From NCBI RefSeq assembly GCF_003633725.1, contig NZ_RBIJ01000004.1, positions 62,001 through 126,000 on the forward strand: 64,000 bases of DNA, read 5' to 3'. The position numbers and the translations under genes were made by a program. The DNA comes from Brockia lithotrophica. GTDB lineage: Bacteria > Bacillota > Bacilli > Thermicanales > DSM-22653. Under the pieces are notes generated by a model. It was not told the DNA's origin and made no database searches. It saw only the letters and a list, made by a program, of their open reading frames with translations. Positions 14,764-18,719 of the stretch are shown one piece after another. Numbering within the stretch: the stretch's first letter is position 1; every line of letters starts with the position of its first letter.

Positions 14764-16308
14764 GTGGCGGCCGGGGGACGTTCGGAGGGATTTGCCCGCA
14801 TTCGCAGCGCGGCCGTCGTCGGAATCGAAGCCTATCCGGTCGACGTCGAGGTGTCCCTTGCGCGCGGGCTTCCCGCCTTCGACCTCGTGGGTCTACCCGG
14901 AAACGCGACGCGGGAGGCGCGGGAGCGCGTGCGCGCCGCGTTGGGAAATTCCGGGTTTCCCTTCCCCCTGGCGCGGATCACGGCAAACCTCGCCCCCGCG
15001 GACCTTCCGAAGACGGGGAGCCACTGGGACCTGCCCTTGGCCGTAGGGATTCTCGTCGCGTCGGGCGGCGTGCGGCCGCTGGCCCGGCTGGACGACGTGG
15101 CGTTTCTCGGAGAACTGTCGCTCGACGGAACGCTTCGACCCGTGCGCGGGATCCTCGCCTTTGCCCAGGCGGTGCGACGCGCAGGCGTCGAAGCGTTTGT
15201 CCTTCCTGCGGAAAACGAGCGAGAGGCGCGCCTGCTCGGTCTCACCGCGTTTCTCGCCCGAAACCTCGCGGAAGTTGCGGCCTTTCTCGAACGTCCGCGG
15301 AACTTCGTGAGCTACAAGGGAGGTTCGGACGAAGCGGCGGACGCCGAAGGAGAGGCCGGGGACTATGCGGACGTATACGGGCACGAAGACGTCAAGCGGG
15401 CCCTCGTCGTCGCTGCGGCCGGATTTCACAACGTACTCCTCGTCGGCCCTCCGGGCTCGGGGAAGACGATGCTCCTCGAACGCCTCGGCACCATCCTCCC
15501 ACCCCTCACGCCGGAGGAATCCCTCGAAGTCTCCACGATTTACGACGTCGCCGGCCTTCTCAACGGTTCGGGGCTTCTTCGGAGGCGCCCTTTCCGCGCC
15601 CCGCACCACACGATCTCTCCACAAGGTCTCGTAGGCGGGGGCTCCGTTCCCGTACCCGGGGAGGTGACGCTCGCCCACCGGGGCGTCCTCTTTCTCGACG
15701 AACTCCTCGAGTTTCCGCCGCGCCTCCTCGATCTCTTGCGCCAACCTCTCGAGTCCGGAGAGGTGGTGTTGGCGCGGGCGCGGGCGCGCGTGCGTTACCC
15801 CGCGCGATTTCTCCTCGCCGCGGCGACGAACCCATGCCCTTGCGGGTACTTCGGTTTCGAGGACGAGGTGCACGCGTGCCGGTGTACCTCGCAAGAAGTC
15901 GGGCGGTACCGGAACCGCCTTTCGGGACCCCTCAAAGACCGCTTCGACATCCTCCTCGAGGTACCGCTCCCCCGGTACCGGGATATCCTCGACCGCAGGC
16001 GTACGGAAACTTCTGCGGAAATGGCCGAGCGCGTACGCGAGGCGGCGGCGCGTGCCGCACGGCGGCTTCCCGACCTTCCCCTGCCGGCCAACGGATTTCT
16101 CGGCCCCCGGGAGGTGGCCCAGGTCGTCCCCTTGTCGCCTCCCCTTCGCGCCTTTCTCCAGGAGCTCCTCGTGGGGTTGGGGCTTTCCGCCCGTGCCGTA
16201 CACAAGCTCCTCAAGGTCGCGCGCACGATCGCCGACCTCGAGGGCGAGGAGAACGTAGGCGAAGCCCACCTCCTCGAGGCAGCGGCCTTGCGCCGGGAGG
16301 TGATCTGA
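14764..16308 (+). CDS. comM: YifB/ComM family Mg-chelatase-like AAA+ ATPase
   Basis: A 514-residue AAA+ protein. ComM in Gram-negative bacteria is a helicase that promotes branch migration during natural transformation; Firmicute homologues are less studied. An N-terminal LonC-like domain (AVVGIEAYPVDVEVSLARGL to about residue 190) precedes the ATPase with Walker A GPPGSGKT at 228-235. RPFRAPHHTIS is the family signature, and LFLDELLEF is Walker B. A cysteine cluster in ATNPCPCGYFG and HACRCTS is also typical. Start GTG 14764 follows GGGAGGGG; a longer frame overlaps the nitroreductase and has no ribosome site. Together with dprA downstream it suggests a competence or recombination theme. Confidence 0.92.
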   Translation: MAAGGRSEGFARIRSAAVVGIEAYPVDVEVSLARGLPAFDLVGLPGNATREARERVRAALGNSGFPFPLARITANLAPADLPKTGSHWDLPLAVGILVASGGVRPLARLDDVAFLGELSLDGTLRPVRGILAFAQAVRRAGVEAFVLPAENEREARLLGLTAFLARNLAEVAAFLERPRNFVSYKGGSDEAADAEGEAGDYADVYGHEDVKRALVVAAAGFHNVLLVGPPGSGKTMLLERLGTILPPLTPEESLEVSTIYDVAGLLNGSGLLRRRPFRAPHHTISPQGLVGGGSVPVPGEVTLAHRGVLFLDELLEFPPRLLDLLRQPLESGEVVLARARARVRYPARFLLAAATNPCPCGYFGFEDEVHACRCTSQEVGRYRNRLSGPLKDRFDILLEVPLPRYRDILDRRRTETSAEMAERVREAAARAARRLPDLPLPANGFLGPREVAQVVPLSPPLRAFLQELLVGLGLSARAVHKLLKVARTIADLEGEENVGEAHLLEAAALRREVI

Positions 16309-16331
16309 ACGGTCTATACGGCAAGCGGAGC

Positions 16332-16378
16332 AAAATCGCACGCTCGAGAAATCGAGAGCGCGGCGAGATTTTGTTTTT
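16332..16378 (+). terminator. Terminator after comM
   Basis: An outer pairing AAAATCGC with GCGA..TTTT encloses a GAAA tetraloop hairpin (CTCGA-GAAA-TCGAG), followed by TTTTGTTTTT. It ends the comM transcript 25-70 bp after the stop. Confidence 0.65.
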
Positions 16379-16408
16379 GGGATGCATAGGGCCCCTGTGG
16401 ACCCACTC

Positions 16409-16417
16409 TTCGACAAA
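16409..16417 (+). promoter_or_regulatory. Perfect Spo0A box (0A box, reverse orientation)
   Basis: TTCGACAAA is the exact reverse complement of the 0A-box consensus TTTGTCGAA. It lies 7 bp upstream of the -35 hexamer of the promoter at 16425-16453, the usual place for a Spo0A-P site. The match is seen; binding is inferred. Confidence 0.5.
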
Positions 16418-16424
16418 CTTTTAC

Positions 16425-16453
16425 TTGACATTAAGTATGAAATGCGTTATGTT
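16425..16453 (+). promoter_or_regulatory. Strong SigA-type promoter upstream of the Spo0E-like gene
   Basis: TTGACA (16425-16430) with a 17-bp spacer and TATGTT (16448-16453): a consensus -35 and a good -10, in an AT-rich island within GC-rich DNA. Transcription would start near 16460. Confidence 0.75.
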
Positions 16454-16459
16454 TGATGC

Positions 16460-16773
16460 CGTACCTTATGCATGAGAAACGTTGTCCGTCCGCGCTATCG
16501 GAGATGCGCGAGAGGGTTCTGAGATCGTGTCCTGCGCCGCGGCCGCGGCGATCCCTTTGGGACACAGGGGGCGGTTCGCGGGAAGGGCGAGGGAGACGTC
16601 GGAAGAGGACGGGCGACGGACGATCCCGTATTCCGCAGCGCGGGACCTCGAACTTGAGAAACGGGCTTCAGAAACGGGAACAGGTACGGGACGGAAACAA
16701 GCCCAGAAGTGAGGTAGGGAAGAGGAGAAGAGGAAAGGAAATGAAAGGAAATGCGTAAACGGTTACTCGTCGT
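16460..16773 (+). other. Long predicted leader or small RNA region, no convincing gene
   Basis: About 310 nt between a strong promoter and the first credible coding frame. Short open frames here have no ribosome site and their translations are Arg/Gly-rich, as expected from GC-rich non-coding DNA. A structured element is visible at 16527-16565: GTGTCC pairs with GGACAC around an inner CGCCGCGGCCGCGGCG hairpin. The last 60 nt are purine-rich (repeated AGGAAAGGAAATG). A 15-codon frame begins at ATG 16751 (a Lys/Arg/Leu-rich peptide) with a good ribosome site and stops just before the Spo0E-like frame, so it could be a leader peptide. Function is unknown; it may be an independent small RNA or a regulatory leader. 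Confidence 0.35.
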
Positions 16774-17124
16774 TTGGCGGTTGCTTTGGGGGTGACCGGG
16801 GTGGAAGTGTTCGCGCGGGACATGGGGGAAGACTCCCTCCGAAACGACTCCTTTCGCCTCACGTTCATGACGACGGCGAACCTTTCGGGTGTGCCCGTAC
16901 GCAAGGGGTCGCGCGTTTCCGAAGAAGGGGTGGCGTACGGAGAGCGGAAGGGCGATTCCGACGGAGAGGGCTTCGAAGAGGACGAGGAGTTGGAGCGGCT
17001 TATCTTGGAAATCGTCCGCCTGCGCTTCGAGCTTTTGAAGCTCGCAGAGTCGACGCGTTCCCTCACCGACCCGGAGATCGTCCGTCTGAGCCGCCTGCTT
17101 GACGAAAAATTCAACCGTCTCTAG
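16774..17124 (+). CDS. Spo0E-like aspartyl-phosphate phosphatase family protein
   Basis: The C-terminal ~45 residues match the Spo0E-like family: two short helices with LERLILEIVRLRFELLKLAE, then LTDPEIVRLSRLLDEKFN, which carries the family's S-x-x-LD core. In B. subtilis such proteins dephosphorylate Spo0A-P and so delay sporulation. The frame is open from TTG 16774 (116 residues), longer than the usual 50-90. The N-terminal half (Gly/Asp/Glu-rich, GERKGDSDGEGFEEDEE) has no recognisable domain. The true start is uncertain: no candidate has a strong ribosome site, and starts at ATG 16867 or TTG 16990 would leave mainly the Spo0E domain. Preceded by a promoter with a 0A box, suggesting feedback on the sporulation phosphorelay. 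Confidence 0.7.
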   Translation: MAVALGVTGVEVFARDMGEDSLRNDSFRLTFMTTANLSGVPVRKGSRVSEEGVAYGERKGDSDGEGFEEDEELERLILEIVRLRFELLKLAESTRSLTDPEIVRLSRLLDEKFNRL

Positions 17125-17168
17125 GAAATCCCGAAGTTGGGACGTGCTGGATTTCTTTGCGCGATTTG

Positions 17169-17177
17169 TGGTAGAAT
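17169..17177 (+). promoter_or_regulatory. Extended -10 promoter of the small unknown gene
   Basis: TG-G-TAGAAT, an extended -10 with a one-base change from TATAAT. No good -35 at 16-18 bp. Transcript would start near 17184, about 50 nt before the gene. Confidence 0.45.
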
Positions 17178-17232
17178 GAATTCGGCATAGAGAGAGCCAT
17201 TTGCGGCAAGGCTTTGGGTGGAGGTGGTAGCC

Positions 17233-17448
17233 ATGCGGTCCGTATTTACGCGCGTTCCCGAGGAAGACGCGCAGATTGCCTGGCAGAAGCAGGTGATCGG
17301 CGAGGAATTTCGCGAACTCGTCGGTAAGAGGTACTTCCGCTTCGCGGGACGCAAGGGGATTCTGAATGCAGAAGAACTCGAGGCGATGCTCGAACGCCGC
17401 CGCGAGCGGGAAGGAAAGAAAAAGGTGTTCGAGGAGCGCATTTTTTGA
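17233..17448 (+). CDS. Small protein of unknown function (71 residues)
   Basis: I do not recognise this family. ATG 17233 has a strong GGAGGTGG six nt upstream, and coding bias matches its neighbours, so it looks real. The protein is highly charged with no signal peptide or membrane segment. The N-terminal part ends FTRVPEEDAQIAWQKQ; the middle VGKRYFRFAGRKGILNAEE could be a small basic binding face; the C-terminal half is a predicted charged helix (ELEAMLERRREREGKKK). It has its own promoter (17169-17177) and is followed by a hairpin (17478-17508), so it is probably monocistronic. It lies between the Spo0E-like gene and dprA. Confidence 0.6.
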   Translation: MRSVFTRVPEEDAQIAWQKQVIGEEFRELVGKRYFRFAGRKGILNAEELEAMLERRREREGKKKVFEERIF

Positions 17449-17477
17449 AAGCGCTCTCGCAGAGATTCGGAAGGAAA

Positions 17478-17508
17478 AGGGGCCGGCCGTGAGCCGGCCC
17501 GCATGTTT
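17478..17508 (+). terminator. Terminator-like hairpin after the small unknown gene
   Basis: Perfect 8-bp stem GGGCCGGC / GCCGGCCC with loop CGTGA, then GCATGTTTT. The short T-run begins six bases after the stem, so efficiency is uncertain. Confidence 0.5.
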
Positions 17509-17543
17509 TCCAGGGAAACGAAGGGTCGGCGGAGGGAAACCGG

Positions 17544-18719
17544 GTGACGGAAGCGGATCTCCTCGCGGCCGCGGTATTGCACGGCGTACACGGCGTAGGG
17601 CAGAGGCGTCTCTGGCGGGTGTACGAGCTCCTTTCCGGCGCCTTTCACCTCCTCTGCACCCGGGAGGGGTGGGAGCGGGTGCGCGCAGGGCGTGCCCTTC
17701 CTGAGGATGTCCTACGGGCGGCGGAGGAGCATTTTGCACGCATTTGCGGCGGAGGGGAGGTCCCACCGAAACCTCGAGATGTGCGCATCCTGTGGTGGGG
17801 CGATTCGGAATACCCTCGGGGACTTCGGGAGATCTCCGACCCTCCCTTCCTTCTCTACGCCCGCGGCGACCTCGACGCGCTCGCGCTTCCCCCGGTAGCT
17901 GTGGTAGGGACCCGGAGGCCTACGGCTTACGGCCTCCTCGTCGCCGAACGGTTCGCCGCGGGTTTTGTCGCCGAGGGGGCCGCGGTCGTAAGCGGCATGG
18001 CCTTCGGGATCGACGCTGCGGCGCACCGCTCGGCCTTACGGGCCCGAGGCCGGACGGTCGCCGTCCTCGCCTCCGGGGTGGACGTGCCGACGCCGGCGGC
18101 GCACCGGCGGCTGTACGAGGAAATCCTCGCAGGGGGAGGGCTCGTCCTCTCCGAAATGCCTCTCGGAACGGCGGCGGAGCGCGGCCTTTTCCCCCTGCGA
18201 AACCGCCTTTTGAGCGGCGTAAGTCGCGCCGTCCTCGTCGTGGAGAGCCGCCCCCGCGGCGGAGCGATGCTCACCGCGGAGTGGGCGCAAACACACGGCC
18301 GTCTCCTCTTCGCGGTTCCCGGGCCCGTGTTTTCTCCCGCAAGCGAGGGGCCGAACCGCCTTCTCGCCGCGGGAGCCCGTCCCGCCCTCTCCCCGGGCGA
18401 AGTCCTCGCGCACCTTTCGTCCGAGAGCCCGGGAGAATTCCGCCCTTCCTCGCAGGCCGAGGGAGCGTTTCGCCCTCCGCCCCCGCAAGACAAAGAAGCG
18501 GGTGCCGCACCCGAGTCGCCGTCCGCCCGCCGTGCGTTTGCCCCGGAAGAGCAGGCGATTCTCGCCCGGCTCGGCGCGGCGCCTCGAACGATAGAAGAGC
18601 TCCTCCGCGAACTCTCCTTGGAGCCATCGGCGCTTTACGCCCTCCTCATCCGCCTCGAACTTGCGGGGCTCGTCCGGCGGCTTCCCGGCGGGCGCTACGC
18701 CCGCGCGGAGGAGAAGTAG
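17544..18719 (+). CDS. dprA: DNA processing protein DprA (Smf)
   Basis: A 391-residue recombination mediator that loads RecA on incoming single strands during natural transformation. The Rossmann-fold core begins near residue 120: PPVAVVGTRRPTAYG, VVSGMAFGIDAAAHRSAL, TVAVLASGVDVPTP, SEMPLGTAAERGLFPLRNRL and LVVESRPRGGAML are all canonical. An N-terminal SAM-like region and a C-terminal winged helix (EEQAILARLGAAPRTIEELL) flank it, joined by a Pro/Gly linker. GTG start preceded by GGAGGG. In B. subtilis sucCD lies just upstream; here the Spo0E-like and unknown genes take that place. Confidence 0.96.
   Translation: MTEADLLAAAVLHGVHGVGQRRLWRVYELLSGAFHLLCTREGWERVRAGRALPEDVLRAAEEHFARICGGGEVPPKPRDVRILWWGDSEYPRGLREISDPPFLLYARGDLDALALPPVAVVGTRRPTAYGLLVAERFAAGFVAEGAAVVSGMAFGIDAAAHRSALRARGRTVAVLASGVDVPTPAAHRRLYEEILAGGGLVLSEMPLGTAAERGLFPLRNRLLSGVSRAVLVVESRPRGGAMLTAEWAQTHGRLLFAVPGPVFSPASEGPNRLLAAGARPALSPGEVLAHLSSESPGEFRPSSQAEGAFRPPPPQDKEAGAAPESPSARRAFAPEEQAILARLGAAPRTIEELLRELSLEPSALYALLIRLELAGLVRRLPGGRYARAEEK

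Follow-up and report, generated by a model that had tools for sequence, protein, structure and literature searches.

Is the gene for a Spo0E-like phosphatase in Brockia lithotrophica controlled directly by Spo0A~P, the protein on which such a phosphatase would act? The question arises from an exact 0A box that lies in front of the promoter upstream of this gene, in the window analysed here (the whole stretch of DNA, 64 kb). The source genome (G000) was compared with G001 of the same genus, with G002 to G004 of the wider family and with G005 of the same order.

A negative feedback loop from Spo0A through AbrB to spo0E has been described in Bacillus subtilis (PMC3269414, available excerpt). Feedback as such is not new for this reason, and the direct site is what differs. 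In both cases Spo0A~P leads to more Spo0E, by which Spo0A~P is dephosphorylated, a course of events that is predicted for the window locus; AbrB acts as go-between in B. subtilis, whereas here a Spo0A box stands at the phosphatase promoter itself. The original prediction held that the wiring would differ, spo0E being an AbrB target in B. subtilis. This holds for the direct site, but not for Spo0A feedback, which the excerpt of PMC3269414 already places in that species. No literature on direct Spo0A control of any Spo0E-family gene was found, the available part of PMC8102284 included; subscription papers were mostly outside the search, so such reports may exist.

The 0A box, the promoter and the regulator

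An exact 0A box had been claimed 7 bp upstream of a consensus -35, and both elements are present (TTCGACAAA at 16409-16417, TTGACA at 16425-16430). The promoter region is laid out as follows.

16409 to 16417, + strand: exact 0A box TTCGACAAA, a single copy within the 64-kb window, identical in G001
Within 16409 to 16417: TTCGACA, the core of the 0A box, which is TGTCGAA on the opposite strand
16425 to 16430, + strand: -35 hexamer TTGACA, 7 nt past the nine-mer, identical in G001
16448 to 16453, + strand: -10 hexamer TATGTT, separated from the -35 by a 17-nt spacer and lying 32 nt after the 0A core; TAGGTT in G001

The combination TTGACA-17-TATGTT is the sole sigma-70-like site in a scan of 16200-17700, where 0.2 were expected. 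Relative to the inferred transcript start, the box would occupy about -51 to -43. The core TGTCGAA, which a direct Spo0A target requires, is present at the promoter of the Spo0E-like gene; the available portion of PMC3485338 describes this core and the bases contacted within it.

Spo0A is encoded in all five family genomes, the source included. The C-terminal domain of the source's Spo0A is B. subtilis-like and can be aligned over its full length with the solved DNA-binding domains 1LQ1 and 1FC3. Lack of spo0A, raised beforehand as an objection to the proposal, is excluded by the gene and its conserved DNA-binding domain. The source genome also has spoIIGA, spoIIAB, spoIIE and a Spo0B-type match. 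Two AbrB-type proteins are encoded as well, a short one that we take to be AbrB-like and a long-tailed one that is presumably like SpoVT. Given the AbrB-like protein, an indirect route via AbrB is possible too.

The spoIIG promoter upstream of spoIIGA (L060 and L061) has TTCGACA 21 nt before TATACT in both genus genomes, amid diverged surroundings. It is the only internal yardstick, because no conserved exact box was seen upstream of spoIIA, spoIIE or abrB. The window promoter resembles the spoIIG type of Spo0A-activated sigma-A promoters in that TTCGACA lies in the same orientation upstream of the -10 in the same genome, with 32 instead of 21 nt between them, about one helical turn further. 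However, the spoIIG-type layout, in which the box takes the place of the -35 at a distance of about 21-22 nt from the -10, is not found at the Spo0E-like promoter, where the full TTGACA is present at the longer distance.

It is proposed that transcription of the Spo0E-like gene starts from the sigma-A type promoter at 16425-16453 and that Spo0A~P would bind the 0A box just upstream of the -35. The bound protein would raise transcription, the transcript would extend into the Spo0E-like gene, and additional Spo0E-type phosphatase would remove phosphate from Spo0A~P, which would constitute direct negative feedback on sporulation entry. Where the box lies and how it is oriented make activation likelier than repression, and Spo0A is known to activate from sites placed upstream of the -35 in such fashion. 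If Spo0A~P at the box instead repressed the gene, the phosphatase would be off at high Spo0A~P, and this positive feedback would make sporulation commitment sharper. With its complete -35 and fair -10, the promoter might need no activator, and two boxes elsewhere in Bacilli (L083 and L204) precede a -10-like hexamer by 6 nt, so that a protein bound there would stand in the way of the polymerase. The window box, however, is found on the upstream side of the -35, shares the orientation of its spoIIG counterpart and is farther from the -10 by one helical turn, and repression is unlikely. A direct link from Spo0A~P to the Spo0E-like gene, with the promoter activated via the box, is the best explanation and on balance a probable one. 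It draws on features that were observed directly, namely the box, the promoter, the gene, conservation in the genus, the presence of Spo0A and enrichment in Bacilli.

Chance level and conservation of the site

Taken singly, the box is no more than chance would give. TTCGACAAA occurs once in the window, and shuffled versions have a mean of 0.45 copies, with at least one copy in 36 of 100 shuffles; the earlier estimate had been about one chance match of nine bases per window. The 7-base core has 7 copies in the window against 7.5 expected. Genome-wide, the nine-mer is found 19 times in G000 against 5 for the reversed pattern, and 17 against 7 times in G001. With genes predicted by a crude codon-usage gene caller, 13 of the 19 copies in G000 fall inside predicted genes and 6 outside, the window's box among them.

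The place of the box and its conservation exceed chance. G000 and G001 each contain a single TTCGACA-N(4-16)-TTGACA, in both cases before the Spo0E-like gene; the original argument had been that the position at a promoter makes a chance match less likely. Three further family genomes contain no such pattern. A wider regulon sharing the box and -35 was considered and rejected, no site being present in 5 genomes except at the Spo0E-like locus.

Between G000 and G001, the two genus genomes compared, the box and -35 are identical over 22 of 22 bp, and the remaining intergenic region is about 49% identical. Identity in the flanks amounts to 54 of 100 positions upstream of the box, 31 of the next 50 and 86 of 197 in the rest of the leader. 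An identical run of 22 arose in 3 of 100,000 simulated alignments at an overall identity of 0.49, with sites treated as independent. The -10 is less conserved than the box and -35, TATGTT being replaced in G001 by TAGGTT, a poor -10.

Outside the genus, neither of the other two family genomes that have a Spo0E-like gene (G002 and G003) carries the box at it. The gene of G002 begins 16 bp past the preceding ORF and has no box, and the sole exact box at the locus of G003 sits within a neighbouring ORF. G004 is without a Spo0E-like gene, and the Spo0E-like locus of G005 has no box. Comparison of orthologous loci, which had been suggested as a check, gave a divided outcome: the box is conserved in the genus (2 of 2 genomes, 22 of 22 bp) but not in the family outside it (0 of 2).

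Enrichment of the box at Spo0E-family genes

Two sets of genomes were searched for the exact core upstream of Spo0E-family genes. The first consisted of 124 family matches in 51 genomes of class Bacilli, from which 121 loci were taken and 120 used, one being without a start codon. The second came from genomes absent from the first, with 18 loci plus the first 40 further matches in table order making 58, of which 56 were used (two without a start codon). A simple rule based on ribosome site, ATG and distance decided the start codon, and 179 heptamers of matched composition with one CG each served as controls.

The exact core lies at most 150 bp upstream in 17 of the 120 genes of the first set (controls: mean 1.54, highest 10, 0 of 179 reaching 17) and in 6 of the 56 of the second (controls: mean 0.56, 0 of 179 reaching 6), some of the matches in these counts being orthologous to each other. 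When the stretch from -1050 to +1200 is divided into 150-bp bins, the one just before the start has the core at 16 of 119 loci of the first set and the other 14 bins at 0 to 6; bins of the second set other than the one before the start have 0 to 3. With G000 and G001 left out, the Spo0E family has 23 of 174 genes with the box and neighbouring ORFs at the same loci 3 of 133 (Fisher p 3e-4). For the combined sets, 23 of 176 Spo0E-family genes carry an exact box within 150 bp and 153 of 176 are without one. Measured from the start codon, the boxes begin 34 to 147 nt upstream, and 13 of the 32 families and 19 of the 79 genomes examined have at least one. The window locus departs from this range, its box being located 290-342 nt before the conserved ATG. 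With a box about 300 nt or more upstream, the genes of G000 and G001 fall outside the enrichment matches.

The control heptamer ATCGTCA is itself frequent upstream of Spo0E-family genes, at 10 of 120 genes of the first set and in 9 of 28 families, and is outside the top five of the second set; it may mark another regulator. When the first set is collapsed by family, the box is found in 11 of 28 and ATCGTCA in 9 of 28, so that the family-collapsed count alone is weak. In the Bacillus pumilus group, an exact box is present at 1 of 10 orthologous spo0E loci. At one locus (L212, in G072), three exact 0A cores precede a single Spo0E-family gene, starting 169, 139 and 109 bp upstream and 30 bp apart. 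Spacings from the box to a -10-like hexamer outside the window are 6, 22, 26, 27, 31, 32, 43 and 44 nt, which hint at helical phasing and are too few and noisy for a claim.

The enrichment of the exact core across Bacilli is stronger support for direct wiring than the lone box. A chance nine-mer match is a true description of the box alone, and was rejected for the box together with its place, its conservation and the enrichment in the family. Alternatively, the conserved 22 bp might represent a promoter that includes an upstream element, or might be bound by a different regulator, and resemble the 0A box by accident. The nine-mer is no rarity and the -35 is itself part of the conserved block; however, the GC-bearing core was kept while the spacer and -10 changed, and the core is enriched at the Spo0E family in two genome sets, which leaves an accidental likeness quite improbable. 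At this locus a direct Spo0A-Spo0E loop is plausible, and in other Bacilli such a loop is probably recurrent. The claim that Spo0A-P controls its own phosphatase gene in a feedback loop gains from the enrichment and the genus conservation, which back direct wiring, and is weakened by the absence of the box at the two other family loci.

The Spo0E-like gene, its leader and its neighbours

The region downstream of the promoter contains the following features.

16460 to 16750, + strand: inferred untranslated leader of about 290 nt, its transcript start inferred from the promoter sequence
16751 to 16795, + strand: conserved ATG16751 with a 14-codon ORF in a frame different from that of the Spo0E-like protein, a possible leader peptide or relic start
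16801 to 17124, + strand: Spo0E-like gene, start uncertain; in the original prediction the ORF began at TTG16774
17218 to 17448, + strand: small conserved gene directly after the Spo0E-like gene, encoding a 76-residue protein of unassigned function

The family domain of the Spo0E-like gene is at 16999-17109. Residues 76-112 of the ORF 16774-17124 match PF09388 (E 3.1e-7, 30.7 bits against a curated cut-off of 23), the sole such match in the genome by profile search, which confirms the Spo0E-like C terminus that had been claimed for the downstream protein. The ORF as first drawn stands for its PF09388 domain but not for its start. TTG16774 is doubtful as a start since the same codon reads TCT in G001, and the N-terminal part of this frame displays no protein-level constraint between G000 and G001. 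From the beginning of the 0A box it is 342 nt to the conserved ATG16751 and 392 nt to the conserved in-frame GTG16801. ATG16751 has a ribosome-site-like stretch before its ORF, and a -1 shift from there into the Spo0E-like frame would give a signal-peptide-like start; in G001 the ORF extends to 41 codons.

For the signature S..LD the window protein has SRLLD, in which S and D are retained; the B. subtilis form is SQELD. Among 176 Spo0E-family members, an S....D-type motif, as counted, is present in 174 and SQELD in 38. Phosphatase activity of the window protein is predicted from its family membership. A sequence search of solved structures returned none of the Spo0E family and gave weak matches to calbindin and others, and a search for named relatives of the protein found none. 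YisI and YnzD are other Spo0E-family phosphatases acting on Spo0A~P (PMC3782651 and PMC3533761, available portions). Like these small proteins, the window protein belongs to the Spo0E family and is predicted to act on Spo0A~P; unlike theirs, its N-terminal part is longer and unconserved, and SRLLD replaces SQELD.

The leader is poorly conserved from 16481 onward (the 86 of 197 aligned positions given above), an Rfam search of it gave no match and its fold is ordinary (z -1.17). A structured leader RNA was rejected on the absent Rfam match and the ordinary fold. Codon-level constraint is clear only in 16999-17124, the Spo0E domain having 4, 1 and 12 differences of 41 at codon positions 1, 2 and 3; 16801-16998 has no codon-position bias, with 14, 23 and 15 differing sites of 64. 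That the promoter drives a small RNA or a leader peptide instead of the Spo0E-like protein, whose ORF would be decaying, as the leader of about 290 nt, the conserved ATG in the other frame and the missing bias in 16801-16998 (14, 23, 15 of 64) could suggest, is very improbable in view of a hardly conserved leader with no Rfam match and no unusual fold, the lack of any other promoter-like site between promoter and gene in the scan, and the clear constraint on the Spo0E domain (4, 1, 12 of 41).

The gene upstream of the box ends at 16308 and carries Mg-chelatase-type domains, from which we take it to be ComM/YifB-like. On the other side, the product of 17218-17448 has no match in Pfam, and a similar neighbour gene is found in G001, G002, G003 and G005.

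Implications for sporulation entry

The B. subtilis spo0E gene also has a sigma-B promoter (PMC7522486, as far as available). There too, according to the same partial source, transcription of a Spo0A phosphatase sets sporulation entry; the input is general stress and not Spo0A~P, and the window promoter is a sigma-A type one. Control of Spo0E-family genes by Spo0A itself may be a general design in the class Bacilli, acquired or retained by many lineages, of which the AbrB-mediated loop of B. subtilis would be one variant; we give this broader view an even chance.

The level and timing of Spo0A~P decide entry into sporulation. If the proposed link is true, such a brake, being direct, would take effect earlier and at a different threshold from a brake that depends on prior removal of AbrB. 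If the link is recurrent across Bacilli, models based on B. subtilis would miss a common link.
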